Of a stretch of DNA of 64,000 nucleotides, positions 11,327 through 38,514 are shown piece after piece (positions within the stretch are counted from its first letter, which is position 1; every line of letters begins with the position of its first letter). Both the position numbers and the translations under genes were made by a program. The notes below the pieces were generated by a model. The model saw only the letters and a program-made list of their open reading frames with translations. It did no database searches and was not told the DNA's origin. This DNA comes from Sphingopyxis sp. (GTDB taxonomy: Bacteria > Pseudomonadota > Alphaproteobacteria > Sphingomonadales > Sphingomonadaceae): the NCBI GenBank assembly GCA_016793775.1, contig JAEULK010000014.1, positions 1 through 64,000 of the forward strand. Direction: 5' to 3'.

Positions 11327-11369
11327 GCAGCATCTTTCCAGCGCCCGCAAAACCGACTATCGCGCGCCG

Positions 11370-12020
11370 ATGGAACAATCCTCGTCGCGCGCTATCGCCC
11401 CCTCGCTGTTTCTTTTCGCCATCCTTTATGGCGGCATGGTTCCGCTCGGCGGATTTCTGGGTGCGAAGCAGGTCGCGCTCGGGCCGCTCGCGGTCGAGGC
11501 GGGAATCTTTCCCTTCCTCACCCTCATCGCGATCTCCAGCGCCATTGCCGAACTCCATGGCCGCGTCGTCGCCGACCGGTTGGTGCGCTTCGGCTTCATC
11601 CCGCTGGTCGTCGCGATCGTCCTGACCGTCTTCGTGCTCCAGCTGCCGACCGACGAGGGCATGTACGAACCCGCGAAGGAAGCTTTCCCGATCATCGTCG
11701 GCCAGGGCTGGCGGATGATGGCGGCGGGCATCCTTGCCTATGGCGTGTCGGTCAGCCTCAACGTGTGGATCTTCTCGCGGATGACCGCGAACAACGGCCG
11801 GTTGCTCCCGATCCGCGGTTTCGTCGCGGCGGCGCTCAGCCAGATCGTCGACACGTTGATCTTCATCACGATCAGCTTTTACGGTGTCCGGCCGATCGCG
11901 GACCTGATGCTGGGGCAGATGCTGGCCAAGGTCGTGCTGTCGGCGGTGATGGTGCCGTTGCTGGTGATGGCGGTGGTTGCGATCGGGCGCCGCCTCGATG
12001 GCGCGGGAAAAGTCGCATGA
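11370..12020 (+). CDS. Queuosine precursor transporter, YhhQ/VUT family
   Basis: A 216-residue inner-membrane protein with about six hydrophobic segments. It matches the vitamin-uptake-transporter (VUT, formerly DUF165) family: [39 protein letters not shown] and the conserved [16 protein letters not shown]. YhhQ-type members import queuosine precursors (preQ0/preQ1) for tRNA modification. No queuosine gene lies next to it, so the substrate is family-based. Its stop overlaps the argB start (ATGA). It is the first gene of a compact same-strand cluster reaching marC at 15470. Confidence 0.88.
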
Positions 12021-12913
12021 ACCACGCCCCCGATCCCGCGATGCTGGCGAAAGCCGAGACGCTCGTCGAGGCTTTGCCCTATCTGCAGCGCTATGCCGGC
12101 CAGGCCTTCGTCATCAAATATGGCGGCCATGCGATGGGCGACCCCGAGGCGCAGCGCGACTTCGCCGAGGATGTCGTGCTGCTGAAAGCCGTCGGCATCA
12201 ACCCGGTGGTCGTCCATGGCGGCGGGCCGCAGATCGGCGCGATGCTGAAACAGCTCGGCATCGAATCGACCTTCGTCGGCGGGCTGCGCGTCACCGATGC
12301 CGCGACCGCCGAGGTCGCCGAGATGGTGCTGGCAGGCAAGATCAACAAGGAAATCGTCGGCTGGATCGCTGCGCTGGGCGGGCGTGCAGTCGGTATTTCG
12401 GGCAAGGATGCCAATCTGGTGCTCGCCGAAAAAGTGTCGCGCAGCGAAGCCGACCCCAATTCGGGGATCGAGCGCCATGTCGATCTTGGCTTCGTCGGCG
12501 AACCCGTCGCGGTCGATCCGACGATCCTCCGGAACCTGACCAAAGACAATTTCATCCCGATCGTCGCGCCGGTCGCGCTCGGCGCCGATGGCGCCACCTA
12601 TAATATCAACGCCGACACGATGGCGGGGGCGATCGCCGGGGCGCTGGGGGCGACGCGCTTCTTCCTGCTCACCGACGTCGCGGGGGTGCTGGGCAAGGAC
12701 GGCAATTTGCTCACCGATCTCGACCGTCCGGCGATCGATATGCTCAAGGCGGACGGCACGATAACCGGCGGCATGATCCCGAAGGTCGAAACCTGCGTCG
12801 CGGCGGTCGATGCCGGTGTCGAGGCGGCGGTCATCCTCGATGGGCGGGTGCCGCACGCGATGCTGCTCGAAATTTTCACCGCACGGGGTGCGGGCACGCT
12901 CATTCATCGCTAA
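12017..12913 (+). CDS. argB: Acetylglutamate kinase
   Basis: A 298-residue amino-acid kinase that phosphorylates N-acetylglutamate, the second step of arginine synthesis. Motifs in order are [10 protein letters not shown] (ATP-binding loop), [13 protein letters not shown] (substrate loop), and [16 protein letters not shown] followed by the LLTDVAGVL segment. The [10 protein letters not shown] near the C-terminus is typical. The frame is open upstream inside the transporter gene, but the ATG at 12017 (ATGA overlap with the preceding stop) gives the normal length and N-terminus. It is a lone arginine gene among unrelated neighbours, as is usual in sphingomonads. Confidence 0.97.
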
Positions 12914-12948
12914 ACTGACGTCATCGACCTTTTCGGCCGGAGCTTTTG

Positions 12949-13257
12949 ATGTATTTCATGTTTCTCGATATCCTGGCGATCCTCCTCAACATCCTGTGGT
13001 GGATCATCATCGTCCAGGCGGTGATGTCGTGGCTGCTCGCCTTCAACGTCATCAACACCCATAATGAATTCGTGCGCCAATTGTGGCTGGTGCTCGAACG
13101 GATCACCGAGCCGCTCTATCGCCCGATCCGACGGATCATGCCCGATTTCGGCGGCATCGACCTGACCCCGATGGTGGTGCTGATCCTGCTGATCATCATC
13201 CGCGGCCCGGTGCTGAACTATCTGTACCAGGTCGGCGCCAACGCCGGCTTGGCCTGA
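12949..13257 (+). CDS. YggT family membrane protein
   Basis: A 102-residue protein with two membrane segments (about 5-30 and 70-90) flanking a short loop [23 protein letters not shown], which is the YggT signature ([10 protein letters not shown]). In other bacteria YggT-type proteins have been linked to osmotic stress tolerance and to the division/shape region, but the molecular role is unsettled. A TTG one codon upstream is possible; ATG 12949 is preferred. It begins 35 bases after argB and ends 4 bases before folD. Confidence 0.9.
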
Positions 13258-13261
13258 TCCG

Positions 13262-14173
13262 ATGGCGACGGGGGCCGACACCGTAGCGCAGGTCATCGAC
13301 GGCAAGGCCTTCGCCGCCGGTCTGCGCAAACGGATCGCCGATGCGGTGCCCGCCTTTGTCGCGGCGATGGGCCGCGCGCCAGGGCTCGCGGTGGTGCTCG
13401 TCGGCGACGATCCGGCGAGCGCGGTCTATGTCGGTTCCAAAGGCAAGGCGACCATCGCCGCCGGCATGGCGAGTTTCGAGCATCGCCTGCCCGCGACCGC
13501 GACGCAGGGCGAGGTGGAGGCGCTGCTCGCGGCGCTCAACGCCGACGAGGCGGTCGACGGCATATTGCTCCAGCTGCCGCTGCCCGGTCACCTCGACGAA
13601 CAGGCGGCGGTCGCAACGATCGATCCCGACAAGGATGTCGACGGGCTGACCCCGGTCAGCGCCGGCCGCCTCGCGATCGGCATACCCGGCATGGTGCCTT
13701 GCACCCCTTATGGCTGCCTGCTGCTGCTTCAGGATCGGCTCGGCGACCTGTCGGGCAAGGATGCGATCGTCGTGGGCCGCTCGATCCTCGTCGGCAAGCC
13801 GATGGCGACACTGCTGCTCGGCGCGAATTGCACCGTCACCATGGCGCACAGCCGGACGAAGAATCTCGCCGACGCCGTGCGCCGCGCCGATATCGTCGTC
13901 GCGGCGGCCGGCCGCGCCGAAATGGTCAAGGGCGACTGGATCAAGCCCGGCGCGGCGGTCATCGACGTCGGTATCAATCGGCTGCCGCCCGCCGCGGGCG
14001 AGGCGAAGGGCCGGCTGGTCGGCGACGTCGATTATGCCTCGGTGCTGCCGCTCGCCTCGGCGATCACGCCCGTCCCGGGCGGCGTCGGTCCGATGACGAT
14101 CGCCTGCCTGCTGCGCAATACGCTCGTCGCGGCGTTTCGCCGCGCCGGCCTCGCCGATCCGGAGGGTTTCTGA
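13262..14173 (+). CDS. folD: Bifunctional 5,10-methylene-THF dehydrogenase / cyclohydrolase
   Basis: A 303-residue cytosolic enzyme of one-carbon metabolism that interconverts methylene-, methenyl- and 10-formyl-tetrahydrofolate with NADP. It shows the FolD landmarks: [20 protein letters not shown] with the catalytic lysine, [25 protein letters not shown], the NADP-binding [13 protein letters not shown] and [11 protein letters not shown]. Length is standard. The stop codon shares one base with the start of the next gene (TGATG), indicating coupled translation within the cluster. Confidence 0.97.
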
Positions 14174-14844
14174 TGCGCCGTTCTATCCTCGCCGTCGCAG
14201 CCTTTGGGGTGATCGCGGGCGGCGCGGTGTCGGCGCGCGAGCGCGACCCGCTGGCCGCAAACCCCAGCGCCTTCATCGCCGCCGAGATCGCCTTTTCGCG
14301 GCTGGCGCAAGAGAAGGGCCAATGGACGGCGTTTCGCGAAACATCGGCGCCCGAGGCGGTGATGTTCGTGCCGCAGCGGGTGAAGGCGCGCGACTGGCTG
14401 AAGTCTCAGAAGGACCCGGCCGAGGCGGTGAAGTGGCAGCCGCACGCGGTCTATATCAGCTGCGACGGCAATGTCGGGGTGACCACCGGCGCCTGGCAGA
14501 AGGGACCGGCCAACGGCTATTTCACCACCGTGTGGCTGCGCGATCCCAAAAAGGGCAAGCTTGCCTGGATCCTCGACCATGGTGACGCGCTCGCGGCGCC
14601 GCGCGAGGCCCCCGATTACATCGCCTCGAAGCAGGCGAAATGCGGCTCGCGCCCGGGCGTGGCGATCGAGGGCGGTAATGAGGGCGAGGACCGCGCGGTC
14701 GGCCTGTCGCCCGACCAGACTTTGAACTGGACCTCGGTCGTCCAGCCGGGCGGCGCCCGCCGGATCACCGTCCGGCTGTGGGACGGCAGCGCGATGCAGC
14801 CGGTTATCGACGACCTGGTCGCCGCACCGGCACCGAAAGCCTGA
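14173..14844 (+). CDS. Secreted NTF2-like (DUF4440-type) hypothetical protein
   Basis: A 223-residue protein with a signal peptide ([21 protein letters not shown]). The region after it (FIAAEIAFSRLAQEKGQWTAFRETSAPEAVMFVPQ..., ISCDGNVGVTTGAWQ) has the look of the SnoaL/DUF4440 cone fold: an N-terminal helix, then strands ending with a dynamic W/G-rich region. The C-terminal 70 residues are extra and acidic-to-neutral. It overlaps folD and marC by one base each, so it is produced with them, but no functional link to folate is apparent. Function unknown. Confidence 0.75.
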   Translation: MRRSILAVAAFGVIAGGAVSARERDPLAANPSAFIAAEIAFSRLAQEKGQWTAFRETSAPEAVMFVPQRVKARDWLKSQKDPAEAVKWQPHAVYISCDGNVGVTTGAWQKGPANGYFTTVWLRDPKKGKLAWILDHGDALAAPREAPDYIASKQAKCGSRPGVAIEGGNEGEDRAVGLSPDQTLNWTSVVQPGGARRITVRLWDGSAMQPVIDDLVAAPAPKA

Positions 14845-23824: not shown

Positions 23825-26800
23825 GTGAAGAAAACCCAATTTTCGATGCTGAAACTGGGCGCCGCGCCGCTGGTGCTGAGCGTCGCTCTGGCTTCGGCAC
23901 CCGCCTATGCGCAGGATGCCGCCGACGACGAAGGCGAAGCGATGATCGTCGTCACCGGTTCGCGTATCGCGCGTCCGAATCTCGATTCGAACAGCCCGGT
24001 TGCTGTGGTCAGCGGCGACGCGACGGTCGAGAACGCCGACGTCACGCTCGACACCTTCCTGAACACGCTGCCGCAGGTTAATCCGGCGGGCACCACCACG
24101 TCGAACAACCCCGGCAACGGCGGTCAGTCGAACATCAACCTTCGCGGCCTCGGCTCGAACCGCAACCTCGTCCTGATCAACGGCCGCCGCCCGATGGTGT
24201 CGGCGTCGGACCAGACGGTCGATTTGAACACCATTCCGCAGGGCCTGATCGAGCGCATCGAAATCGTGACCGGCGGCGCCGGCGCGGCCTATGGTGCCGA
24301 CGCTATTGCCGGTGTCGTCAACCTGATCCTCAAGGACAATTTCGAGGGCATCGACCTTCGCGCCAGCTACTCGAACTCGATCCCCGAGACCGACGCGCGC
24401 GAATATCAGATCAGCGGCATCATCGGCGGCAACTTCGCCGACGGCAAGGGCAACATCGCTTTCTCGGCCGAATATTCGAAGCGCCAGGGCATGATCAAGG
24501 CGCAGCGCGCCTTCGCATCGCAGGCGACCTCGACCACGGGTTCGTTCCCGACCGGTACCTTCGTCAACAGCGGCACCAACCCCATCAGCCAGGCGGCGGT
24601 CAACTCGCTGTTCGCCGGCTATGGCGTCACGCCGGGGCAGACGCCGAGCGTCAGCCAGCTGGGTTTCAACTCGGACGGTACGCTGTTCGGTCGCGGTTCG
24701 TTCAACAACCCCCTCAACGTGTCGAACTTCCGCTATGAACTCGATTCGCCGGCGAACCCGAACCTGAACTTCTTCCCGGACTTCTACAGCTACAACTTCG
24801 ACATCGTGAACATCCTCGTCCTCCCGCTCGAGCGCAAATCGGCGTTCCTGACGGCGAATTACGAGATCAACCCGGCGTTCGACGTGTTCGTCCAGGGCGG
24901 CTACACCGAATACAGCTCGTCGACCGCGCTGGCGCCGACCCCGGTCAGCACCGGCATCGTCAACCCGGCGAACACCACGGCCTCGGGGCTCAACGCGCGC
25001 TCGCCGCTCGTTGCGGTCGGCGGCCGCGTCACCGGCTTCATCGTGCCGGTCACCAACCCGTTCATTTCGAACGACCTGCGTGCGCTGCTCAACACGCGTA
25101 CGCTTGACGACGTGAACGTAGCGGGTGTCGGTGCCGCTGAAGGCGTCCGCATCGGCTATCGTTTCCTCGGCACCGGCCTGCGCGAGCAGAAGATCAACAA
25201 CCGCGTGATCCAGGGCCTTGCTGGCCTGCGCGGCGAGTTCGCGCCAGGCTGGCGCTACGAAGCCTATTACAGCTGGGGCGAAACCACGATCGACCAGGCT
25301 GCGACGGGCAACGTCAACGTCCAGCGTGTTCAGGAACTGCTCGAAGCTCCCGACGGCGGTGCCAGCCTCTGCGACGGCGGCTTCAACCCGTTCGGCATCC
25401 AGCCCTTCTCGGCTGACTGCGTCGATTATGTCGATGAAATTGGCGTGACCAAGACGAAGTTCTCGCAGAAGGTCGCTCAGGCCTATGTTTCGGGTGAACT
25501 GACCGACCTGCCCGGCGGCCCGCTTGGCGTCGTGTTCGGTGTCGAACAGCGCAAGTTCCGTTACGCCTTCGACCCGGGTTCGCTGTTCGGTCCGATCGCC
25601 GGTTTCAACACCGCGACCCCCGATCTTGGCACCAACAAGTTCCTCGACTTCTTCGGCGAACTTCGTGCTCCGATCATGGACAATCTGGAACTGTCGCTGA
25701 CCGCTCGTCGCTCGAAGAGCGACTTCAACGACATCCAGAACGGCGTGAACGGTGCGCCGTCGAACGACTGGACCTATGGTGGCACCGTCACCTTCAGCCC
25801 GATCGACGAAGTCCGCCTGCGTGCGAGCTATCAGCGTTCGGTTCGTGCGCCGAACTTCGGCGAACTGTTCTCGGGCGGCGGCAGCTTCCCGCAGATCTTC
25901 GACCCCTGCTCGATCAACTCGAACTTCCGCCAGACCGGCGGGACCGCAGCGCGCGATCTTTGCATCGCGACCGGCGTGGGTGCGGGTACCGTCAACAGCT
26001 TCGTTCCGTCGCCGGGCGCCCAGGCGTTCATCACGACCACGGGCAACCCCAATCTGAAGCCGGAAAAATCGGACACCTTCACCGTCGGTGCGGTGTTCCA
26101 GGCTCTCGGCTTCACGGGCTCGATCGACTATTACAACATCAAGATCAAGGACACGATCCTCAACCCCGACGTCAACGAAATCATCGCATCCTGCTATGGC
26201 TACAATGACATCAACTCGAACCTGAGCGGGACCAGCCCGTTCTGCGACGCGATCGGCCGTTCGGGCGATGCCATGACCGGTATCTACCTCCCGGCTTCGC
26301 TGGGCGGCGACGCAAGCGGTTATTTCCAGTTCGTCAACGCCGGCTCGGTCAAGACCTCGGGCGTCGATGTTCAGCTGGGCTATCGCCTGCCGACCGAGTT
26401 CATCAACGAGGACGCTGCGCTGAACTTCAACCTGGCGGTCAACTATCTGATCGACTTCAAGAACGTCGGCCTCGGCGGCCTGAAGACCGATTATGCTGGT
26501 ACGGCTTCCTACTTCGGTGCGGGTCTCGGCACGAGCTTCCCGCGCTGGAAGGCGACGCTCAACACCAAGTTCAACATCACGCGTGAACTGAGCTTCGACA
26601 GCCGCGTCCGCTTCATCGATGCGATGGAAAACCGTGCGGCGCGCCAGTTTGTCGGCGAAACCTTCACGGGTCCGGGCAGCGTGTTCTACTTCGACTTTGC
26701 GATGCAGGCCGAAGTCGATGCGTTCACCTTCCGCATCGGTCTGAACAACGCGTTCGACCGCAAGCCGGAGACCTACTCGCCGAACGTGCAGTCGGGTACC

Positions 26801-26863
26801 GATCCGTCGCTGTACGACGTCATCGGTCGCCGCGCCTATGCGTCGGTGCGCCTGAAGTTCTAA
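23825..26863 (+). CDS. TonB-dependent receptor (first of two)
   Basis: A 1012-residue outer-membrane receptor using GTG as start, with AAGGG at 23812-23816 eight bases upstream. After a signal peptide (about 30 residues, ending AYAQ) comes a TonB-box-like AMIVVTGSRI and a plug domain with the motifs RGLGSNRNLVLINGRR, IPQGLIERIEIVTGG and YGADAIAGVVNLILK. The rest is a 22-strand barrel ending in RRAYASVRLKF (C-terminal aromatic). Codon choice is biased toward C-ending codons and is less GC-rich than many neighbours, as in highly expressed genes. It imports an unidentified substrate. Its neighbours include sulfotransferases and hydroxylases; the second receptor at 32823 is a relative. Confidence 0.93.
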   Translation: MKKTQFSMLKLGAAPLVLSVALASAPAYAQDAADDEGEAMIVVTGSRIARPNLDSNSPVAVVSGDATVENADVTLDTFLNTLPQVNPAGTTTSNNPGNGGQSNINLRGLGSNRNLVLINGRRPMVSASDQTVDLNTIPQGLIERIEIVTGGAGAAYGADAIAGVVNLILKDNFEGIDLRASYSNSIPETDAREYQISGIIGGNFADGKGNIAFSAEYSKRQGMIKAQRAFASQATSTTGSFPTGTFVNSGTNPISQAAVNSLFAGYGVTPGQTPSVSQLGFNSDGTLFGRGSFNNPLNVSNFRYELDSPANPNLNFFPDFYSYNFDIVNILVLPLERKSAFLTANYEINPAFDVFVQGGYTEYSSSTALAPTPVSTGIVNPANTTASGLNARSPLVAVGGRVTGFIVPVTNPFISNDLRALLNTRTLDDVNVAGVGAAEGVRIGYRFLGTGLREQKINNRVIQGLAGLRGEFAPGWRYEAYYSWGETTIDQAATGNVNVQRVQELLEAPDGGASLCDGGFNPFGIQPFSADCVDYVDEIGVTKTKFSQKVAQAYVSGELTDLPGGPLGVVFGVEQRKFRYAFDPGSLFGPIAGFNTATPDLGTNKFLDFFGELRAPIMDNLELSLTARRSKSDFNDIQNGVNGAPSNDWTYGGTVTFSPIDEVRLRASYQRSVRAPNFGELFSGGGSFPQIFDPCSINSNFRQTGGTAARDLCIATGVGAGTVNSFVPSPGAQAFITTTGNPNLKPEKSDTFTVGAVFQALGFTGSIDYYNIKIKDTILNPDVNEIIASCYGYNDINSNLSGTSPFCDAIGRSGDAMTGIYLPASLGGDASGYFQFVNAGSVKTSGVDVQLGYRLPTEFINEDAALNFNLAVNYLIDFKNVGLGGLKTDYAGTASYFGAGLGTSFPRWKATLNTKFNITRELSFDSRVRFIDAMENRAARQFVGETFTGPGSVFYFDFAMQAEVDAFTFRIGLNNAFDRKPETYSPNVQSGTDPSLYDVIGRRAYASVRLKF

Positions 26864-26886
26864 TCTTCTGCGACGAACCAGACGGG

Positions 26887-26919
26887 GAGGGCGGGACTGG
26901 TGTCCCGCCCTCTTTTTTT
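26887..26919 (+). terminator. Rho-independent terminator after the first receptor gene
   Basis: A 10-bp G+C-rich stem (arms 26887-26896 and 26903-26912), loop CTGGTG, then seven T's at 26913-26919. It sits 23 bases after the receptor stop and only 14 bases before the ATG of the TPR-sulfotransferase gene, so most receptor transcripts should end before that gene. Confidence 0.92.
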
Positions 26920-26932
26920 ATAGACAGCGCCG

Positions 26933-28924
26933 ATGACCGTGACCGACCGATTGCGCGCCGCCTATGCGGCCTATGCCAAGGGCGATTTCGCCACCGCGAA
27001 AGCCCAGGGCGAGGCGGCGTTGCGCGCCCAGCCGACCAACCCGACCATTCTTCAACTGCTGGGCGTGGTATCGTGCCAGACCGGTTCGCTGCGGACCGGG
27101 GCAGACTATCTGCGCCGCGCTCTCGCCAGCGGCGGCGACACCAGCGACAACCGCGTCAACCTGGCGCGCGCTTTGCTCGACCTTGGCGATCTCGACGAAG
27201 CCGCCCGCGTCTGTGCCGAGGGCGACATCGCCGGATCGGCGGACCTGCAGGTGATGCAGGCGCAAATCCTGAAGGCGCAGGGGCGCACGACCGAAGCGGG
27301 CTGGGCTTATGAAAAGCTCGTCTCCGACAATCCGACCGACTTCAACGCCTGGAACAATCTGGGCAACGCGCGGCATGAGGGCGGCGACCTTGAGGGTGCG
27401 CTGGCGGCCTTTCAGCAGGCGCGGCAGATCGATCCGCAATCGTCGCTGCTCCACACCAATATGGGCCGCGTGCTGATCTCGATGGACCGTTATGAAGAGG
27501 CGTGCCTGATCCTCGAAAAGGCGGCGCTGCTCGCGCCCAAGGATCCGGCGCCCTTGCTCGAGTTGGGACGCACGCTGACCAGCATCAACCATCTCGAGGG
27601 CGGGCTCCGCGCGCTCGGCGCCGCCGCGCGGCTCGATCCGTCCGATCCCAAAATCTTCCTCGCCATCGCCGTCGCGCTGCTCGACCAGGAAAATAGCGCG
27701 CAGGCCGAAAAGGCGCTGCGCTTCGCGATCAAGGCCGATCAACGCTTCATTCCCGGCTATCTCAACCTCGGCATCCTGCTCGAAAAGGCCAATCGCACCG
27801 ACGAACTGCGGTCGCTGATCGCTGCCGCTGCTGGTGCAGGCCTGGCGGGCGACGAGATCGACTATCTGCGCGCGCTGCTGCTCAGCCGCGACGGCGACCG
27901 CGCCGCGGCGCTCGACCTGGTGCGCGACCTGCAATCGCCGGCGATCAGTCCGTCGATCAAGGCGCAATTCGCCGGGCAGCTCGCCGACCGGCTCGGCCGC
28001 ACCGACGATGCGATCCGTTTCTATGAGGATATGAACGCGGCGCAGGCGCAAAGCCCGATGGGCGTCGGGGTCGATCGCAGCGCCTATCAGCGCGCGATCG
28101 CCGCGCTCGACGCGCAGACGACCCCGGCCTGGTTCGCCGAATGGGCCGCGCCGCCGCAGGCGGCGAGCGACCGGCCCGCGCCCGCGTTCCTCGTCGGTTT
28201 TCCGCGGTCGGGGACGACATTGCTCGACACGATCCTGATGGGGCACAGCGACACCCATGTGCTCGAAGAGCTGACGATCATCGAGGATATCGCCAAATCA
28301 CTGGGTGATCTGGACGCTATCCGCGCCCTCGACGCCGGGGCGGTCGCCGACCTGCGGGCGCGCTATTTCGCCGAGCTCGACCGGCAGGCGCCGCCGCCGC
28401 CCGGCGCCCTTGTGATCGACAAGAATCCGCTGTCGATGATCCGGATGCCGTTGATCCACCGGCTGTTTCCCGACGCGAAGACCATCCTCGCGATGCGCCA
28501 TCCGTGCGACGTCGTGCTCAGCTGCTATATCCAGAATTTCAAGCCGACCGAGGCGATGGCGAGCTTCCTCGACCTCGCCAACGCCAGCCGCACCTATGAC
28601 CGGATCTTCCATTATTGGGAGACGTGCCGCGACGTGCTGCCGACCGACGTTCATGTGCTGCGCTATGAGGCGATGGTGGCCGATGCCGGCGCAGCGACGC
28701 GTCCCCTGTTCGACTTCCTCGGTCTCGACTGGCAGGACGCGGTGCTCGATCACCAGAAGACCGCGAGCGAGCGCGGCTTCATCCGCACCCCCAGCTATGC
28801 GCAGGTGATGGAGCCGATCTATTCCTCGGCGAGCGGACGATGGAAGCGTTACGAGCCGCATATGCGCGAGGTGCTGCCGATCCTCGCGCCCTGGGCCGAG
28901 CGTTACGGGTATAGCCTCGATTGA
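26933..28924 (+). CDS. Tetratricopeptide-repeat sulfotransferase
   Basis: A 663-residue protein with N-terminal TPR repeats (about 5-370, e.g. NAWNNLGNARHEGGDLEGALAAFQQA) and a C-terminal sulfotransferase domain (about 415-660). The PAPS-binding loop is VGFPRSGTT (421-429), and the 3'-phosphate motif is ILAMRHPCDVVLSC (about 518-531). It would transfer sulfate from PAPS to an acceptor, the TPRs probably recognising a protein or peptide. No signal peptide; cytoplasmic. It follows the receptor gene across a terminator, and a second sulfotransferase is at 31329. Acceptor unknown. Confidence 0.92.
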   Translation: MTVTDRLRAAYAAYAKGDFATAKAQGEAALRAQPTNPTILQLLGVVSCQTGSLRTGADYLRRALASGGDTSDNRVNLARALLDLGDLDEAARVCAEGDIAGSADLQVMQAQILKAQGRTTEAGWAYEKLVSDNPTDFNAWNNLGNARHEGGDLEGALAAFQQARQIDPQSSLLHTNMGRVLISMDRYEEACLILEKAALLAPKDPAPLLELGRTLTSINHLEGGLRALGAAARLDPSDPKIFLAIAVALLDQENSAQAEKALRFAIKADQRFIPGYLNLGILLEKANRTDELRSLIAAAAGAGLAGDEIDYLRALLLSRDGDRAAALDLVRDLQSPAISPSIKAQFAGQLADRLGRTDDAIRFYEDMNAAQAQSPMGVGVDRSAYQRAIAALDAQTTPAWFAEWAAPPQAASDRPAPAFLVGFPRSGTTLLDTILMGHSDTHVLEELTIIEDIAKSLGDLDAIRALDAGAVADLRARYFAELDRQAPPPPGALVIDKNPLSMIRMPLIHRLFPDAKTILAMRHPCDVVLSCYIQNFKPTEAMASFLDLANASRTYDRIFHYWETCRDVLPTDVHVLRYEAMVADAGAATRPLFDFLGLDWQDAVLDHQKTASERGFIRTPSYAQVMEPIYSSASGRWKRYEPHMREVLPILAPWAERYGYSLD

Positions 28925-28949
28925 GTCCCGCGCGGCTGGTTCGCCGGAA

Positions 28950-28978
28950 TTGACGCCGGAGCGTCACCGGCATAGATT
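28950..28978 (+). promoter_or_regulatory. Sigma-70-like promoter of the first small secreted gene
   Basis: TTGACG (28950-28955), 17 bases, then TAGATT (28973-28978). The following ATG is at 29007. The second paralog has the same -35 hexamer, same spacing and near-identical -10 (30041-30069). Confidence 0.65.
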
Positions 28979-29006
28979 TGGCGGATCGGAATATAAGGAA
29001 TCTCTC

Positions 29007-29270
29007 ATGGCAAGAGTTCGCACATTTGCGTTGCTGATATCGGCGTCGCTGCTCTCGGCCGCCCCGTCCTTCGCGCCGGCCCATGCCGAAGAGGCGCCGT
29101 CGGCGAATCCCAAGGACAAGATGGTGTGCAAGCGGACGCAGAAGACCGGCACGCGCTTTTATTCGCAGATCTGCAAGACCGTCGCGCAATGGGACGCGCT
29201 GGCCGAGCAGCAGCGGCGCGACCTGCGCGAAACGGTCGACCGGCCGCAGATCGAAATCCGCCGCGACTGA
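29007..29270 (+). CDS. Small secreted two-cysteine protein (paralog 1)
   Basis: An 87-residue protein with a signal peptide (MARVRTFALLISASLLSAAP..., cleavage near AHA). The mature core begins PKDKMVCKRTQKTGTRFY and continues SQICKTVAQWDALAEQQ, with two cysteines that could form one disulfide. Over 47 residues from PKD to RPQ it matches the protein at 30097 at 35 positions. Such short C-K-R...T-G-T-R...C proteins recur in sphingomonads and caulobacters, to my recollection, with no known role. Ribosome binding AAGGAA lies upstream. It may be a substrate of the nearby modifying enzymes or an unrelated surface protein. Confidence 0.85.
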   Translation: MARVRTFALLISASLLSAAPSFAPAHAEEAPSANPKDKMVCKRTQKTGTRFYSQICKTVAQWDALAEQQRRDLRETVDRPQIEIRRD

Positions 29271-29273
29271 CCC

Positions 29274-30005
29274 TCAGCCCCGGGCGCGCAGCCAGCCGGT
29301 GATCGATAGCCGCGCCTCGGGCGCGAAGGGCGTGACATAGCTGACGCTGTGCCGCTGCGGCACCGCGAACAGCCGCAGCGCCCCCATCCGCGGGGCAAAG
29401 GCCTCGTCGATATTGCCGTCGCCGCGGTGGAACATCAGCAGCCCGCCCCATTCGGCGCGCCACGCCGGCGCGAGCGAATAGACATAGGCCGCCTGCCGGT
29501 TCTTGCCCGCGACATCGTCGTCGTGACAGGTCAGGAAATGCCCGTCGCCATAGCTGGTCGCCTGCCCGTCGGCGAAGCGCGATCGCGCGTGACCGAGTAC
29601 ATGGCCCAGCCGCTCGAGCACCGCTGGCGACGAGAGAAAGGCAATGAAGCGCGCGATTGGATCGTCCGATGCGGCGTCGCCGCCATCGGGCGCACGGATC
29701 GCTTCGTAGCGATATTGGAAACCATCGCGCCCCGCCGCAACGATCAGCCGGTCGAGATCGCGGCGCTGCCCGGCGTCCAGCGCGGCATGGGCATCGCGGG
29801 TCAGCTCATAGACCTTGTCGCCGGCGTTCATCACCAGTTTCCAGTCGTGCCGCGCCAGCAGGTGCGCGCGCAGCGCCGCCGCCTGGCCGTCCGCCAGCAA
29901 CTCGGCGATCTCGACGCGTCCGCGCGCGGCGAACTGCCGTTTCAGCGCATCCCAGTCGATCCGGTCCGACAGGCAAAATTCGAGCATCATCGGGGTCTTT
30001 TCCAT
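29274..30005 (-). CDS. 2OG-Fe(II) oxygenase (prolyl-hydroxylase fold)
   Basis: A 243-residue dioxygenase using Fe(II), O2 and 2-oxoglutarate. The C-terminal half has the double-stranded beta-helix signature: HxD as H161-D163 (CHDDD), the second iron histidine H219 in QRHSVSY and the 2OG-binding arginine R232 in RLSITGW. The N-terminal half is helical. Acceptor unknown; the group includes prolyl 4-hydroxylase-like enzymes that modify proteins. It lies head-to-tail against paralog 1 (3-base gap) and divergent from paralog 2. ATG at 29990 or 29987 would shorten it by five or six residues; the choice is uncertain. Confidence 0.88.
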   Translation of the reverse strand: MEKTPMMLEFCLSDRIDWDALKRQFAARGRVEIAELLADGQAAALRAHLLARHDWKLVMNAGDKVYELTRDAHAALDAGQRRDLDRLIVAAGRDGFQYRYEAIRAPDGGDAASDDPIARFIAFLSSPAVLERLGHVLGHARSRFADGQATSYGDGHFLTCHDDDVAGKNRQAAYVYSLAPAWRAEWGGLLMFHRGDGNIDEAFAPRMGALRLFAVPQRHSVSYVTPFAPEARLSITGWLRARG

Positions 30006-30040
30006 CGGCCGTGCCGCCCTGTCCAGCCCGCGCGGCCGGT

Positions 30041-30069
30041 TTGACGGCGGCGGGCCAAGCGAATATATT
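30041..30069 (+). promoter_or_regulatory. Sigma-70-like promoter of the second small secreted gene
   Basis: TTGACG (30041-30046), 17 bases, then TATATT (30064-30069). It drives the gene starting at 30097 and, through it, the operon to 32580. Same architecture as the promoter at 28950-28978. Confidence 0.68.
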
Positions 30070-30096
30070 CGGCGCCAGCCGATAGAGGCGTGGAGA

Positions 30097-30378
30097 ATGA
30101 TTGTCATGCGTGGAATAAATCTGCTGGCGCTGGCGGCGACCGCCGCCTTGCTGCCGGCGACCCCGGGGTTCGCCGCCGTGGCGAGCGACGACAGCAGCGT
30201 CGATCCCAAGGACCGGATGGTGTGCAAACGCACGCAGAAAACCGGCACGCGTTTCTATGGCAAGATCTGCAAGACGGTCGGGCAGTGGGAAGCACTGGCC
30301 GAAGAAAATCGCCGCAGCCTGAGCGAACAGACCAACCGGCCGCAGCAAAATTATCAGCCGACACGGCCGGGCGAATGA
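30097..30378 (+). CDS. Small secreted two-cysteine protein (paralog 2)
   Basis: A 93-residue protein with a signal peptide (MIVMRGINLLALAATAALLP..., cleavage after GFA). The core PKDRMVCKRTQKTGTRFYGKICKTVGQWEALAEENRR is nearly identical to paralog 1, including both cysteines and the single Phe-Tyr pair. The start is uncertain: ATG 30097 (AGAGG eight bases upstream) or ATG 30106 (GGAG ten bases upstream). Its stop overlaps the next gene's ATG (ATGA at 30375-30378), so it is translationally coupled to a hydroxylase-fold protein, which links it to modification rather than to general secretion. Confidence 0.85.
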   Translation: MIVMRGINLLALAATAALLPATPGFAAVASDDSSVDPKDRMVCKRTQKTGTRFYGKICKTVGQWEALAEENRRSLSEQTNRPQQNYQPTRPGE

Positions 30379-31325
30379 AACTCGGCCTGCCGCTGGTCAA
30401 ACTGCCGCGGCAATATTGTTCCGAAACCCTGGCGAAAGAGGTGGCGGCGCTGCCGCAATCGGCGTGGCTGCCGCATCCGGGGCGCATCCCGGGCAACGAC
30501 GCGGTTCCGCTGATCACCCCGGCGGGTCAGGTCAGCAACGGTTTCGCCGGCCCGATGGCGCCAACCGACGCGCTGCGCGCCTGCCCCTATATCATGGAGA
30601 TTCTCGCCGACCTGGGCGCGGTCTGGGGGCGCAGCCGGCTGATGGGCCTCGCGCCAGGCGCGGTGGTGCCCGAGCATGTCGACGTCGGCTACTATTGGCG
30701 CACCCATATCCGCATCCATATCCCGGTGGTCACCAACCCCGAGGTCGCGTTCAGCTGCGACAAGGAAACGGTGCATATGGCACCGGGCGAATGCTGGCTG
30801 TTCGACAGCTTCTGCCTGCACAATGTGCGCAACGGCGGCGATGCCAAGCGTGTCCATCTGGTGCTCGACACGGTCGGCGGCGAGAAATTATGGGCGATGA
30901 TCGCCGATGCCAAGCGGCTGGGCCGCGACGGCCAGCCGGTGGTGACGGTCGCGCCGGGGTCGGTGGGCGCCGCGCCGCTCGCCTATGAACAGGTCAACCT
31001 GCCCGCGATCATGTCGGTCTGGGAGATACGCTGCCACGTCGATTTTCTGCTCCAGCAATGTGCCCCCGGCCCGGCGCGCGACGCGGTGACGGCGCGGCTC
31101 GAGCAGTTCGCCAACGCCTGGGGGGCGCTCTGGGCGCAATATGGCACCGATACCGCGGGCCTGCCCGCCTATCGCCAGATGATCGACCAGATCCAGCGCG
31201 ACCTGCAGCGGCTGGAGGCGCAGCGCATCCTGCTTCCCAATGCGGTGCCGCTCGACCGCGCGCTTGCCGAGCTGGTGTTCCTGGTCGCCGCGCCCAATGC
31301 GATGCCCGCCGCCGCCGCGGCCTGA
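30375..31325 (+). CDS. Aspartyl/asparaginyl beta-hydroxylase-fold protein (first)
   Basis: A 316-residue protein whose middle matches the aspartyl/asparaginyl beta-hydroxylase domain (about 85-165): PGAVVPEHVDVGYYWRTHIRIHIPVVTNP, then LHNVRNGGDAKRVHLVLD. Likely iron/2OG residues are H101 (HVD), H149 (LHNVRN) and R159. The family uses Fe(II)/2OG to hydroxylate Asp or Asn side chains in proteins. The helical C-terminal third (about 200-316) is additional and unassigned. It is coupled to paralog 2 upstream and sits three bases before the second sulfotransferase gene. No signal peptide. Confidence 0.85.
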   Translation: MKLGLPLVKLPRQYCSETLAKEVAALPQSAWLPHPGRIPGNDAVPLITPAGQVSNGFAGPMAPTDALRACPYIMEILADLGAVWGRSRLMGLAPGAVVPEHVDVGYYWRTHIRIHIPVVTNPEVAFSCDKETVHMAPGECWLFDSFCLHNVRNGGDAKRVHLVLDTVGGEKLWAMIADAKRLGRDGQPVVTVAPGSVGAAPLAYEQVNLPAIMSVWEIRCHVDFLLQQCAPGPARDAVTARLEQFANAWGALWAQYGTDTAGLPAYRQMIDQIQRDLQRLEAQRILLPNAVPLDRALAELVFLVAAPNAMPAAAAA

Positions 31326-31328
31326 CCG

Positions 31329-31952
31329 ATGATCGTTTCGCACAAGCACCGCTTCATCTTCGTCGCGATTCCCAAGACCGGGACCCATTCGGTGCGCCAC
31401 GCGCTGCGCGACCATATGGGCGAAGGCGACATGGAGCAGGCGCGGCTGTTCGTGGAAAAAACCTTCCCGATCCCCGAAATCGCGCGCATGGGGCACGGCC
31501 ATATCAGCTTTGCCGAAGTCCGGCCGTTCCTCGGCGAGGAGGCGTTCCAGAGCTATTTCAAATTCGCCTTCGTGCGCAATCCGTTCGATCGCTTCGTCTC
31601 CTATTGCGCCTTCGCCACCAGCCGCGAGGGCAGTTTCGAGCGCGATCCGAAGCGCGTGATGCGGCATTTCCTGTTCACCGCGCCGCCGATGAACCATATC
31701 ATCTTTCGCCCGCAGCATCTGTTCGTCACCGACCGCGACGGGAGCCTGCAGGCCGACATGCTGGGCAAGGTCGAGGAGATGCAGGCGTCCTACGACGCGG
31801 TCGCGGCGCGGATCGGGATCGATACGACGGCGCTCGACCACGCCAACCGCTCACGCCGCGGCGACTATCGCGACTATTATGACCAGGAACTGATCGACGG
31901 CGTCGCGAAAATCTATGCCCGCGATCTCGAATTGTTCGGCTATGATTATTGA
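31329..31952 (+). CDS. Sulfotransferase family 2 protein
   Basis: A 207-residue stand-alone sulfotransferase. The PAPS 5'-phosphosulfate loop is IPKTGTHS (14-21) and the 3'-phosphate motif VRNPFDRFVSYCAF (82-95). It belongs to the Golgi-type/family 2 group (carbohydrate and protein sulfotransferases in other organisms). Bacterial acceptors are mostly unknown. It is third in the operon after paralog 2 and the first hydroxylase-fold protein, and is clearly distinct in architecture from the TPR enzyme at 26933, which suggests two acceptors or two steps. Confidence 0.9.
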   Translation: MIVSHKHRFIFVAIPKTGTHSVRHALRDHMGEGDMEQARLFVEKTFPIPEIARMGHGHISFAEVRPFLGEEAFQSYFKFAFVRNPFDRFVSYCAFATSREGSFERDPKRVMRHFLFTAPPMNHIIFRPQHLFVTDRDGSLQADMLGKVEEMQASYDAVAARIGIDTTALDHANRSRRGDYRDYYDQELIDGVAKIYARDLELFGYDY

Positions 31953-31974
31953 GCGCGCAGGCTAGGCAGGCATC

Positions 31975-32580
31975 ATGTATCCCAACCCCCGCAAAACGAC
32001 GAGCATCCGGCGGCTGGGCGCGGTCGACATCGCCGCGCTGAAGGCGGCGGTGCTGGCAATCCCCGAGGATGTCTGGCAGACTGAAAATGCCGACAAGCCC
32101 AACCGCTTCGAGGCGCTCGACGCGACGGCGCATATCGTCTTTCGTTTCGTTTCGGACATGCGCGACTGGCGCAGCGCCTTTGCGCGGCCGCTGTGGGATG
32201 AGTGGGAAGCGTTGCTGGCGCCGGTGCTCGCCGCGGCGACCGCCGACTATGGCTATCGGAACGGCATATTCCCGCGCGTGATGCTCGCGCGCATGCCCGC
32301 GGGCGGCGTGATCCGGCCGCACCGCGACGCCAATCCCGCCGCGAAATGGCCGCACAAGATCCATGTGCCGATCCAGACCAACGATCGGGTCCTGTTCCGT
32401 ATTGAGGGTGCGACCCATCATATCGCCGAAGGCGAGGCGGCCGAGGTCAATAATATGGGCGTCCATGCGGTGGTGAACGGCGGTACGGCCCCCCGTATCC
32501 ACCTGATCTTCGAATATTATGACGCCGACCAGCCCGAACCCGCATGGCTGGCGGCGGTCGCGGCGGGGCAGCCCGCCTGA
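31975..32580 (+). CDS. Aspartyl/asparaginyl beta-hydroxylase-fold protein (second)
   Basis: A 201-residue protein with the same domain as the first but a shorter frame. Likely active-site residues are H116 and D118 (RPHRDAN), H164 (NNMGVHAVVNGG) and R174 in PRIHLIFEYYD. The sequence HKIHVPIQTNDRV supplies the middle strand. It begins 22 bases after the sulfotransferase. No export signal. Two different hydroxylase-fold proteins in one operon suggest two sites or two substrates. Confidence 0.87.
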   Translation: MYPNPRKTTSIRRLGAVDIAALKAAVLAIPEDVWQTENADKPNRFEALDATAHIVFRFVSDMRDWRSAFARPLWDEWEALLAPVLAAATADYGYRNGIFPRVMLARMPAGGVIRPHRDANPAAKWPHKIHVPIQTNDRVLFRIEGATHHIAEGEAAEVNNMGVHAVVNGGTAPRIHLIFEYYDADQPEPAWLAAVAAGQPA

Positions 32581-32822
32581 TCGCCTGCTGCCTGCCGTTC
32601 GTCGAACGCCGTGGTCGTTTGGACGGTCGGCGCTTGTTTTGCGGCGGGACCTCTGCATCGTCGTTCATGCACCGGGGATCCTCTGAAATAACAGAAAATT
32701 AAGGATAATCCCCGATTGCGCGAGGCGGGGTGGGTCGTGCCGGACGATAGGCGCGCAGGTTTTTGCGCGCAACCTTGCCCCGACAGGACACACCCCGATG
32801 GATGTAAAAAGGGAGTTTGTCC

Positions 32823-35800
32823 GTGAAAAATCTCGTCGTTTTGGCAAGCCTGCGCATGGGCGCGGCGCCGCTGGCTTTGGGGCTGGCGCTCTGTGCCGCC
32901 ACCCCCGCTTTCGCGCAGGACACGTCCGCCGATACCGCCGCCGATGACGCTTCGGCCGACAACGGCGAAGCGATCGTCGTCACCGGTTCGCGTATCGCGC
33001 GCCCCGAAGCCGATTCGCCCAACCCGGTGACCTCGATCAATAGCGAGACGATCCAGCAATCGGGCCTGACCAACCTCACCGACCTGCTCGTCCAGAACCC
33101 CGCATTGCTCGGATCGAGCACGACCGCCGATGCGGGGGGTTCGACCGCGCTGTTCGGCGGCGTCGGCATCAATCTGCTCAACCTGCGCAACCTCGGCACC
33201 GAACGCACACTCGTACTCGTCAACGGCCGCCGCCATATTTCGGGCATCACCGGCACCGCGTCGGTCGATATCAATACGATCCCCAACGCGCTGATCGACC
33301 GCATCGATGTGCTGACCGGCGGCGTGTCGGCGGTCTATGGCGCCGATGGCGTGTCGGGCGTGGTCAATTTCGTGCTCAAGCGCGACTTCGAGGGCATCGA
33401 CGCGCGTTTCCAGACGGGCATTTCGTCGCGCGGCGATGCGAACAACATTTACGGCTCGCTGACCGCCGGCACCAATTTCTCCGACGACCGCGGCAATGTG
33501 GCCGTGTCCTACGAATATAACCGCGACGCCCGCGTCCCCGCGAGCGCGCGCAAGACCGGGCGCAACCTCGGCCTGTTCAGCTTCCGCCAGAATCCGCTCG
33601 ACAATCCCGACCCGCGTTTCGACGATCCCGGCATCATCGACCGCATCCTCTACAACGACATCCGCTATGCCGACAGCGCGCCCGGGGGTGCGGTCGACGT
33701 CGATATCGACTTCACGCCCGACTTCACCGGCGCGGGCAAGGTCTATGATCTCGGCACCGCGATCCCGAGTTCGGGCGGCGTGGTGCAGGGCGGCGACAGC
33801 ACCCCGATCGCGGGCTATCAGGGCGACCTCCAGCCCAAGACCGAAAAGCATAATATCAACCTGCTCGGCAGCTATGAATTCAGCGATGCGCTGCGCTTTT
33901 TCGTCGAGGGCAAATATGTGACGACGAAGAATTTCTCCTTCGCGCAGCCGTCGTTCGATTTCTTCACCACGGTCCAGGCCGACAACCCCTTCATTCCAGC
34001 GGCGATCCGGAATGCCATCGTGCCCGATGCGCTGTCGCTCGGAATCTTCGGCGATGTCGGTTTCCTGCCCGACGGCGTTCTTGTCAGCCGTGACAATTTC
34101 GACCTGGGCGTGCGCGGCGAATATGCCGAGCGCGACACCTATCGCGGGGTGCTCGGCTTCGACGGGCGGCTGACCGACAATCTCACTTACGAGATCAGCT
34201 ATGTCTATGGTCAGACCAAAACGCGCTTCCTGAGCACCAATTACCGGCTGCGCGACCGCTATTTTGCGGCGCTCGACGCGGTCGATCAGGGCGCGTACCA
34301 GACCGGCACGCCGAACGGCAATATCGTCTGCCGCTCCACGCTCGACCCGACCGCGCCGGGTAATGATCCGAACGGTATCATCATCGGCGCCGATACAACG
34401 CCGATCACCTTTACACCGGGCGCGGGCAGCGGCTGTGTGCCGCTCAACATCTTCGGTGACGGGTCGCCGAGCCGGGCGGCGCTCGACTGGATCAACGTCG
34501 ATCTCGAAAACCGGATCAAGGTGCAGCAGCACGTCGTCAGCGCCTCGGTGTCGGGCGACACCGGCGCGGTGTTCGAGTTGCCCGGCGGGCCGATCGGCTT
34601 TGCATTGGGCGCCGAATATCGGAAGGAAAAGTCGAACTTCGTCCCCGACCCCTTCCTCGTTCAGGACGCGCTTGCCGACCTTGCGGCGCAATTCCCCGAG
34701 ACGGGCAGCTTCGACGTCAAGGAGGTCTTTGCCGAGATCAATATTCCGGTGCTGCGCGACATGCCCTTCGCCGACATATTGCAGTTCGGCGCGGCGATCC
34801 GTTTCTCGGATTATTCGACGATCGGGACCACGACGACGTGGAAGGTAGACGGTACCTGGGGTCCGGTGCGCGATATCCGGTTCCGCGGGACCTATTCGGA
34901 AGCGGTGCGTGCGCCGAACCTGACCGAGCTGTTCGCGCCCCAAAATGGCGCCTTCTCGTTCATCGACGACCCCTGCGATCCGAGCAACCTGGCCGAGGGC
35001 ACCTCGTTCCGCGTCGCCAATTGTACCGCGACGCTGACCGCGCTCGGCATCGATCCGGCGACGTTCAACCCGGTCAACGACCCGCAGGCAACCGCGTCGC
35101 TGCCGGGCCGCACGATCGGGACGCCTTTCCTCGACGAGGAAACGGCGAAGACCTGGACCGCGGGCGTGGTGCTGCGGCCAAGCTTCATCCCGGGGCTGGT
35201 CGCCACGGTCGACTGGTATGATATCACGATCAAGAATGCGATCACCACCGCGACCGCGCAGGACCTGACCAACGCCTGCGTCGACCAGCCGACGCTCGAC
35301 AACCAGTTCTGCGACCTGATCACCCGCGATCCGACGACGGGTTTCGTCTCGGACTATCTGCTGCGGCCGCTGAACGTGTCGCAGTTCGCGACGTCGGGCG
35401 CCGACTTCACGCTAAATTATGGCTTTCGGCCGAGCGACAGCCTCGGCCAGTTCAATGTGCGGGTGGCGGGTGGCTATCTCGACGGCCTGACCTTCATCTC
35501 GACCCCGGGGGCCGAGGTCGACAACGACCGGACCGAGGCGTTCGCGCCGAAGTGGAATGGCACGCTCGACGTCACCTGGGTGAAGGATAATTGGTCGCTG
35601 AATTACGGCGTCAATTATTTCAGCAAGACGCGGCGCTTCACGACCGAGCAGATCGAGGCCAACCCCGATCTCGTCGATCCGAAGTACATCTTCTACCGCG
35701 AGAAATGGGAGCATGACGTCCAGCTCGGCTTCAAGACCGACGACGCGCGTTTCCAATTCTATGCCGGCGTGAACAACCTCTTCGGCCGCGATCCCGATGT

Positions 35801-35885
35801 CGGCGAACTCAACTATCCGTCGAGTTTCCGCGGGCGTTATGTCTATGCGGGGGTGAAGGTGAATTTGGCGAGCATCGGCCTCTAG
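32823..35885 (+). CDS. TonB-dependent receptor (second of two)
   Basis: A 1020-residue outer-membrane receptor that, like the first, uses GTG (32823), with GGGAG at 32811-32815 seven bases upstream; a TTG two codons earlier is too close to that site. Signal peptide ends AFAQ, then EAIVVTGSRIARP. Plug motifs are RNLGTERTLVLVNGRR, IPNALIDRIDVLTGG and YGADGVSGVVNFVLK. The barrel ends FRGRYVYAGVKVNLASIGL. It shares the plug pattern of the first receptor but diverges in the barrel and loops. It lies 242 bases after the second hydroxylase-fold gene, so a separate promoter is likely. Confidence 0.92.
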   Translation: MKNLVVLASLRMGAAPLALGLALCAATPAFAQDTSADTAADDASADNGEAIVVTGSRIARPEADSPNPVTSINSETIQQSGLTNLTDLLVQNPALLGSSTTADAGGSTALFGGVGINLLNLRNLGTERTLVLVNGRRHISGITGTASVDINTIPNALIDRIDVLTGGVSAVYGADGVSGVVNFVLKRDFEGIDARFQTGISSRGDANNIYGSLTAGTNFSDDRGNVAVSYEYNRDARVPASARKTGRNLGLFSFRQNPLDNPDPRFDDPGIIDRILYNDIRYADSAPGGAVDVDIDFTPDFTGAGKVYDLGTAIPSSGGVVQGGDSTPIAGYQGDLQPKTEKHNINLLGSYEFSDALRFFVEGKYVTTKNFSFAQPSFDFFTTVQADNPFIPAAIRNAIVPDALSLGIFGDVGFLPDGVLVSRDNFDLGVRGEYAERDTYRGVLGFDGRLTDNLTYEISYVYGQTKTRFLSTNYRLRDRYFAALDAVDQGAYQTGTPNGNIVCRSTLDPTAPGNDPNGIIIGADTTPITFTPGAGSGCVPLNIFGDGSPSRAALDWINVDLENRIKVQQHVVSASVSGDTGAVFELPGGPIGFALGAEYRKEKSNFVPDPFLVQDALADLAAQFPETGSFDVKEVFAEINIPVLRDMPFADILQFGAAIRFSDYSTIGTTTTWKVDGTWGPVRDIRFRGTYSEAVRAPNLTELFAPQNGAFSFIDDPCDPSNLAEGTSFRVANCTATLTALGIDPATFNPVNDPQATASLPGRTIGTPFLDEETAKTWTAGVVLRPSFIPGLVATVDWYDITIKNAITTATAQDLTNACVDQPTLDNQFCDLITRDPTTGFVSDYLLRPLNVSQFATSGADFTLNYGFRPSDSLGQFNVRVAGGYLDGLTFISTPGAEVDNDRTEAFAPKWNGTLDVTWVKDNWSLNYGVNYFSKTRRFTTEQIEANPDLVDPKYIFYREKWEHDVQLGFKTDDARFQFYAGVNNLFGRDPDVGELNYPSSFRGRYVYAGVKVNLASIGL

Positions 35886-35934: not shown

Positions 35935-35936
<2 letters not shown>
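35909..35936. terminator. Bidirectional terminator between receptor 2 and clpB
   Basis: A 10-bp stem (AAGGGCGGCA, 35909-35918; TGCCGCCCTT, 35923-35932) with loop TTTC and T's to 35936. The minus strand also reads into A/T-rich ends, so it may stop both converging genes. The clpB stop codon lies at its edge (35935-35937). Confidence 0.85.

Positions 35937-38514
<2,578 letters not shown>

Follow-up and report, generated by a model that had tools for sequence, protein, structure and literature searches.

In a 64,000-nucleotide stretch of Sphingopyxis sp. DNA (contig JAEULK010000014.1, positions 1 to 64,000; hereafter the window) we encountered a cassette of genes encoding TonB-dependent receptors (TBDRs), sulfotransferases, 2-oxoglutarate (2OG)-dependent oxygenases and small secreted proteins (SPs) that lies 3′ of clpB. 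It starts with the receptor TBDR1 (23825-26863, plus strand; Pfam plug 3e-20, barrel 7e-34), which is followed by a terminator-like hairpin of 14 pairs and a T run (26884-26915, plus strand) and by TPRST (26933-28924, plus strand; Sulfotransfer_3, 1e-32), in which TPR repeats are joined to a protein-tyrosine-sulfotransferase-like enzyme with the loop FPRSGTT for 3′-phosphoadenosine 5′-phosphosulfate (PAPS). SP1 (29007-29270, plus strand) has a signal peptide by eye and two Cys residues around TGTR, then W, R and P. Next comes PHD, an oxygenase of prolyl-hydroxylase type (29274 to about 30005, start codon by eye; 2OG-FeII_Oxy_4, 6e-21), which lies on the minus strand and is the only gene of the set transcribed against the others. 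The remaining plus-strand genes are the SP1 paralog SP2 (30106-30378, found by reading the sequence), AspH1, an oxygenase of Asp/Asn-hydroxylase type that carries an additional C-terminal half (30375-31325; Asp_Arg_Hydrox, 2e-18), the family-2 sulfotransferase ST2 (31329-31952; Sulfotransfer_2, 1e-16, motif PKTGTHS), a second Asp/Asn-hydroxylase-type oxygenase, AspH2 (31975-32580; domain match 9e-11, motif by eye), and the receptor TBDR2 (32817-35885; Pfam plug and barrel). SP2 and AspH1 overlap by ATGA (30375-30378), and the site is marked by its conserved neighbour clpB (35935-38514, minus strand). Every gene listed for 23,825-35,885 in a preliminary description of this DNA (two TBDRs, two sulfotransferases, three oxygenases and two SPs) is present, and the enzyme motifs it claimed are visible: both PAPS loops are seen, and the HxD, second His and 2OG-associated Arg of AspH1 are invariant across 24 sequences (alignment A5). 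The same description called the two receptors related, which holds for the plug (45% identity over 193 residues) but hardly for the barrel (25%).

Residues 418-660 of TPRST align with TPST1/2 (5wri, 3ap1) across the entire catalytic domain (4e-14) and retain PRSGTT together with the Arg, Glu, Lys and Ser positions, which we take to be catalytic in these enzymes. By this alignment the catalytic domain is of the protein-tyrosine sulfotransferase type, with tyrosine sulfation as its predicted activity, which makes a protein or peptide substrate reasonable. Unlike TPST1/2, TPRST is bacterial, is fused to TPRs and has no membrane anchor that can be seen by eye. Its TPR part is similar to O-GlcNAc transferase and to designed TPRs; a 2OG-FeII_Oxy_5 oxygenase from a related locus also has clear TPR repeats, and a TPR-AspH has weak ones (7e-4, below the cut-off). 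ST2 has no solved relative at E≤0.1. For AspH1 the solved chains nearest to the profile are L-proline cis-4-hydroxylase (4p7w, 3e-9) and a chain named "proline oxidase" (1e5r, 4e-6), presumably a proline 3-hydroxylase, followed by a beta-hydroxylase (7v4f, 2e-5) and, weakly, by AspH (5apa, E 0.07); AspH1 was rejected as an LpxO, scoring 20.5 bits where the cut-off is 500. No solved chain is a convincing relative of AspH2, and the nearest one to PHD is OGFOD1 (4nhx, 4e-5).

Relatives of the cassette were collected with an ST2 profile search of named genomes (the best 80 of 81 relatives), leaving out L259 and the hits from L265 on except L291, at identities of at most 33%. Genes were labelled with a simple open reading frame (ORF) caller and profiles built from these loci (E≤1e-3; E≤1e-5), so that genes under longer ORFs were partly missed (e.g. 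PHD in L217), and tblastn with nine window proteins served as a check. A conserved neighbourhood in related genomes, on which the preliminary description had staked its proposal, was found within the genus and in G114, and it takes three forms. Form A retains a near-window order in L217-L223, titled Sphingopyxis, Sphingorhabdus, Sphingomonadaceae bacterium and Rhizorhabdus. The full order is present in L217 and L218; the contigs of L219, L221 and L223 are too short for the full set, and that of L222 ends inside clpB. One SP each is seen in L220 and L221. Genome G114 (locus L027), of a different genus, has the order TBDR1-TPRST-SP-(PHD)-SP-AspH1-ST2-AspH2-clpB without a TBDR2 ortholog; its enzymes and TBDR1 are 54-74% identical to those of the window, and its SPs 39-43%. 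When AspH1 was searched against 119 family genomes, 17 of them had matches at E≤1e-5, most of which covered just a short part of some other AspH gene; beyond the window there was one close match, in G114 (67%), and two at 38-41% identity.

Form B comprises 16 loci (L238, L241-L251, L253, L256, L263 and L264, of which L263 ends at a contig end) titled Caulobacterales, Sphingomonadales or unplaced alphaproteobacteria or bacteria, in which a TBDR and ST2 are mostly accompanied by AspH2, TPRST and AspH1, without an SP. By tblastn, AspH2 is present at ≥60% identity in 13 of the 16 loci, TPRST in 15 and AspH1 in 14. A TBDR stands directly before ST2 in all 16, an order that is part of the definition of this form. 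These clusters occur in other taxa and have no clpB label nearby. Phospholipase C-like genes lie near L238, L244, L248 and L251, with phosphonate-use-like genes also near L238 (names by eye), hinting at phosphorus uptake. Form C consists of ST2, mostly with AspH2 only, and is found in 17 loci titled Lysobacter, Luteimonas or Lysobacteraceae (L224-L236, L239, L240, L252 and L291; ST2 59-67% identical) and in two gammaproteobacterial metagenome-assembled genomes (L254, L255). AspH2 (58-72%) occurs in 16 of the 17 Lysobacter-type loci, and tblastn gave no SP, PHD or TPRST match in form C. Near ST2 in L224 and L226 lie prfC-like and hemolysin-III-like genes (names by eye). Across forms B and C the identity of ST2 is 57-67%; the retention of ST2 with AspH2 in such different taxa identifies this pair as a module crossing classes. 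Other sets around ST2 include TPRST-like and AspH1-like genes in L237, L260, L261 and L262, TPRST in L257 and AspH2 in L258.

We found clpB in 115 of the 119 family genomes and used 83, each with at least 7 kb 3′ of clpB, 31 of which had been picked through SP or AspH hits; the counts are uncorrected for kinship. A TBDR of this type is present at 60 of these loci, an oxygenase at 34, a sulfotransferase or X341 (a family described below) at 34 and an SP at 17; 19 loci have none of these classes and 17 have a TBDR alone. TBDRs accompany 33 of the 34 oxygenase loci versus 27 of the 49 others (one-sided Fisher test, p=1e-5), and all 17 SP loci. A sulfotransferase or X341 is found in 25 of the 34 oxygenase loci versus 9 of 49 others (p=5e-7), and among the 52 loci picked by clpB alone in 6 of 11 versus 6 of 41 (p=0.011). 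The commonest partner of the enzymes at the 83 loci is therefore the TBDR and not the SPs; among the TBDR loci the co-occurrence of SP and oxygenase (12 of 17 versus 21 of 43) is not significant (p=0.11).

Within the genus, cassette A (ST2 at least 83% identical) is found in 10 of 80 genomes, in nine of them no more than 4.4 kb from clpB and in the tenth on a contig with no clpB found. X341 is present in 47 of the 80 genomes, 45 times within 10 kb of clpB, and occurs in none of the ten cassette-A genomes versus 47 of the 70 others (two-sided p=6e-5). The two are mutually exclusive cassettes at one clpB site. G147, with cassette A, and G143, with X341, each encode a ClpB 97% identical to that of the window, and so close relatives differ in their cassette. 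We read this exclusion as exchange at a fixed site 3′ of clpB, other routes of gain and loss being possible. The distance from ST2 to clpB is about 4 kb in six genomes of the genus and about 0.7 kb in three, which suggests that TBDR2 is absent in some of them. Fourteen genomes of the genus carry an SP-family gene no more than 400 bp from clpB (54-161 bp; e.g. G135:C1:313376-313573), and ten of these genomes have neither cassette A nor X341. X341 is a family of about 341 residues (e.g. L044:9607-10632 and L042:3498-4523; its profile was merged with that of X322 as one family) with no Pfam match for the L042 and L044 copies, no NCBIfam match for the L044 copy and no match among PDB sequences. 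Its HSxxCCSTL motif, invariant in five aligned copies, resembles a nucleotide-binding loop, and hhalign gave a weak match to the TPRST domain (63 columns, E 0.015, probability 3%). As X341 is at most a candidate sulfotransferase, the association of oxygenase with sulfotransferase was also tested without it, with the outcome given below.

SP1 and SP2 are proteins of about 90 residues each and are 56% identical. SP1 has no Pfam or NCBIfam match, and one SP of L044 has no Pfam match. Their family shares a core C-x(n)-[TI]G[ST][RL]-x(n)-C, usually followed by a W, and all 13 aligned SPs (alignment A4) have the C-terminal Pro, as does one of the two SPs of L027. Tyr is not conserved, the corresponding positions reading RFY, RFF, RFQ, RFK or RLR. 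Mimicry of the TonB box by the SPs, considered from the occurrence of TGSR in SPs and receptor N-termini, was dropped as weak because the SP core varies (ETGSL, VIGSR, PTGTR and others). Putative sigma-70-like promoters precede SP1 (TTGACG-17-TAGATT, 28950-28978, plus strand) and SP2 (TTGACG-17-TATATT, 30041-30069, plus strand), both as consensus matches only, which are weak evidence. The hexamers of the SP1 promoter recur before one SP of L218, and those of the SP2 promoter before one SP of L218 and the SP of L219. Of the six SP copies in L217-L220, five have a promoter-like site upstream that matches 9-10 of 12 letters and the sixth has one matching 8 of 12; no convincing site was found for the copies in L221-L223 and L027. 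A first SP profile gave 97 hits in 70 of the 119 family genomes. Of these hits, 45 have a TBDR of this type no more than 6 kb away, 40 have clpB at up to 9 kb and 32 have an oxygenase gene at up to 6 kb, with 24 in housekeeping contexts and 23 elsewhere; after removal of the three genomes from which the model was built the first three figures are 39, 34 and 26 of 89. The housekeeping contexts contain rpsD/trmJ/nrdR/glyA or ribosomal rpl genes (names by eye); for example, L097, L107, L110 and L138 have an SP paralog near rpsD-like and trmJ/nrdR/glyA-like genes, likewise named by eye. Some clpB loci contain an SP and a TBDR without an enzyme, and the SPs therefore follow receptors at least as much as they follow enzymes.

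The receptors themselves are variable. TBDR1 carries a TonB-box-like IVVTGSRI near its mature N-terminus, and 73 of 120 receptors have such a motif, nearly always as I-[VI]-V-T-G-[ST]-R-I. TBDR1 is 70.5% identical in L027 and 79-92% in L217, L218, L220 and L222, and has little in common with form B receptors outside the plug; of the form A loci examined, L217 alone has a TBDR2 ortholog (91%). The hairpin that follows TBDR1 is almost letter-identical in the window, L217, L218 and L220 and is present in L222 and L027, and in form A the stem ends 19-20 nt before the enzyme start in five of six loci and 79 nt before it in L027. In form B the enzyme starts 18-24 nt past such a stem in 6 of 16 loci. 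Overall, a perfectly paired stem of ≥8 bp is found in 25 of 38 gaps between TBDR and enzyme genes, across several enzyme types (L028/L246 and L094/L196 are the same genomes counted twice, one further gap is too short, and some stem-less gaps are bounded by doubtful called start codons). An enzyme start 18-24 nt after a stem leaves little room for a separate promoter, which suggests read-through, and the simplest reading of this arrangement is that receptor mRNA would be made in excess over enzyme mRNA.

The nearest known systems share only part of this set. The raxX-raxSTAB locus of Xanthomonas is not known to include oxygenases or a TonB receptor, and possesses a dedicated peptidase-exporter; none of the latter kind was seen among the genes read from TBDR1 to clpB in the window. 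As described in the available part of PMC6637879, its sulfotransferase adjoins the gene for a 60-residue precursor, and the product is a peptide with a sulfated tyrosine. The likeness is that of a bacterial sulfotransferase beside a gene for a small protein; in the window the partner is mostly a receptor, and the SP alignments lack the conserved Tyr of a RaxX-type precursor. Methanobactin operons, according to the available part of PMC3621798, combine a ribosomal peptide with a TonB-dependent transporter, contain core MbnB/MbnC and a MATE exporter, and in two Group II operons encode the sulfotransferase MbnS (PF00685); an AspH-type oxygenase and a TPR sulfotransferase go unmentioned in that part. 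In contrast, MbnB/MbnC and a MATE exporter were not seen in the window locus, and none of the eight proteins scanned from TBDR1 to clpB was recognised as MbnB-like, in a scan where no MbnB model was singled out. A different relative lies on contig C79 (L037) of the same genome, at about 8000-14200, where AspH2-like (47%) and ST2-like (40%) paralogs belong to a lasso-peptide-like cluster with Sulfotransfer_1, PqqD, asparagine synthase and glycosyltransferase 8. This cluster has a predicted 47-residue precursor ending in DDIFYDAS, and similar FY[DNS]xS ends occur in L034, L035 and L036. The window locus, unlike it, is without peptide-maturation genes, a PqqD-like protein and an asparagine synthase-like cyclase being absent from the eight scanned proteins, and no relative of the window TBDRs is labelled in the C79 cluster. 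A cluster like the one on C79 appears in Table 2 of PMC10040529, purely as annotations so far as that source was available.

Alphaproteobacterial loci in which a TBDR is accompanied by oxygenases, a tryptophan halogenase and SapC are a further parallel, with a TBDR of the VTGSRI type and a different enzyme set. Our literature search found nothing combining a TonB-dependent receptor, SapC and tryptophan halogenase, and PMC7142613, which deals with TonB transporters of sphingomonads, has no word in its main text beginning sulfotransferase, hydroxylase or oxygenase.

We tentatively interpret the locus as an exchangeable receptor-plus-modifier cassette 3′ of clpB, with enzymes that would hydroxylate and sulfate, in the cytosol, the receptor encoded alongside them before its export, a reading that we consider quite possible, though short of an even chance. 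AspH1, AspH2 and PHD would hydroxylate residues of the receptor and possibly of SP1 and SP2, and on the same proteins TPRST would O-sulfate tyrosine, while ST2 might O-sulfate the new hydroxyl or a side chain. As no signal peptide is visible by eye in the enzymes and they use PAPS and 2OG, they should act in the cytosol; modification would take place on unfolded chains ahead of Sec export, with the TPR domain holding the client. The modified receptor would then take up its ligand, and the SPs would be periplasmic or secreted partners. Several observations weigh against this proposal. Both modifications are predictions from gene content, and substrate, reaction order, compartment and ligand are all inferred. 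The TPRs are no proof of a protein client, the closest solved relative of AspH1 is a hydroxylase of free L-proline, and recognised sulfotransferases taken alone are only weakly linked to oxygenases at clpB (14 of 34 versus 8 of 49, p=0.012). TBDR2 is no constant member of the cassette, form A receptors are nearly unrelated to those of form B although the ST2 is 61% identical (window versus L028), and the Lysobacter-type loci have no TBDR adjoining ST2-AspH2, the nearest lying some 6-9 kb from ST2 in 16 of the 17. A terminator behind a strongly expressed receptor gene is ordinary in itself, and 10 of the 16 form B loci have no perfect 8-bp stem before ST2, a few of them with doubtful starts. 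Nor are Tyr residues in acidic context enriched in receptors near TPRST (1.9 versus 2.2 per protein, 50 versus 70 receptors, p=0.6); overall Tyr content is higher in these receptors (p=2e-5), a difference probably confounded with the form B receptors.

Alternatively, the enzymes might produce or modify a small molecule or a short peptide, which the cell would export and then re-import through the TBDRs; we regard this as somewhat unlikely. The proline hydroxylases nearest to the AspH1 profile and the Lysobacter-type ST2-AspH2 pair without an adjoining TBDR would fit such a product, and this alternative is kept alive by the AspH2 and ST2 paralogs in the C79 peptide-tailoring cluster together with the methanobactin precedent of a peptide, a TonB-dependent importer and, in some operons, a sulfotransferase (PMC3621798, available part). 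It is at odds with the protein-tyrosine type of TPRST and with the gene content, as no peptide synthetase, lasso or export gene was seen in the locus, and a search around ST2, covering 19 loci of form C and 15 of form B but skipping ORFs that overlap large genes, gave no convincing conserved precursor gene. The largest clusters from that search were, by eye, antisense-type artefacts and a CBS-domain protein, and were rejected as precursors.

Much the same standing, on the unlikely side, is given to the SPs as the true substrates, with a secreted modified peptide taken back up or sensed by the TBDR. PHD would then act on the conserved C-terminal Pro, AspH1 on Asp/Asn, and TPRST and ST2 on Tyr or a hydroxyl. 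The intimacy of the genes speaks for this, as the ATGA overlap of SP2 and AspH1 recurs in L217 and L218, SPs lie on both sides of PHD in the window, L217, L218, L223 and L027, and each window SP has its own promoter-like site; the Pro conservation and the third of SP hits that lie near an oxygenase gene agree with it. However, PHD follows AspH2 in L221 and L222 rather than lying between SPs, Tyr varies, and of the 17 clpB loci with an SP five have no oxygenase, four of these having no enzyme of any kind. Forms B and C, moreover, keep ST2 and mostly AspH2 (B mostly also TPRST and AspH1) with no relative of SP1 or SP2 detected by tblastn at E≤1e-5; two small secreted-looking proteins of other families stand beside L028, which is from the same genome as L246. 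With nearly a quarter of the SP hits in housekeeping contexts as well, the small proteins are not the element that these loci share. The idea of a post-translational modification system in the preliminary description is thus supported in part, by the conserved set and by an enzyme of protein-tyrosine sulfotransferase type. It is improbable, in our view, that the interval 3′ of clpB is simply a tolerant integration site with the receptor, enzyme and SP genes as unrelated passengers. Its content is certainly very variable, as the loci with none of the classes or a TBDR only illustrate, TBDR2 is often absent, and most of the clpB-adjoining SP genes of the genus occur without cassette A and X341. 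On the other hand, gene order is shared between genera, form B clusters exist in other taxa away from any labelled clpB, hairpin-linked TBDR-enzyme order is seen in part of the loci, and SP2 and AspH1 are coupled by ATGA.

Among the matches listed in our literature search we recognised no paper on this combination, although an earlier prediction of TBDR-linked dioxygenases is possible, and the conserved, exchangeable assembly is new to us. To our knowledge, tyrosine sulfation of bacterial proteins is known only from RaxX-like peptides, and hydroxylation of Asp and Asn in bacterial proteins has scarcely been studied. On a bolder interpretation, which we consider doubtful, the clpB interval would be an allelic-exchange locus for covalently decorated TonB receptors, bearing sulfated Tyr and hydroxylated Asp, Asn or Pro and with small partners decorated too, at which close relatives would exchange entire receptor-plus-modifier sets and so change ligand or escape phages and bacteriocins. 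If the receptor-plus-modifier proposal is true, the cassette would be a tractable model joining sulfation and hydroxylation chemistry to outer-membrane receptors, and the two clpB cassettes of the close relatives G147 and G143 would permit a direct comparison. It would also provide candidate roles for X341 and for an SP family that is widespread in these genomes. The cassette itself is a hint that surface receptors or their partner proteins may be chemically modified in some bacteria.

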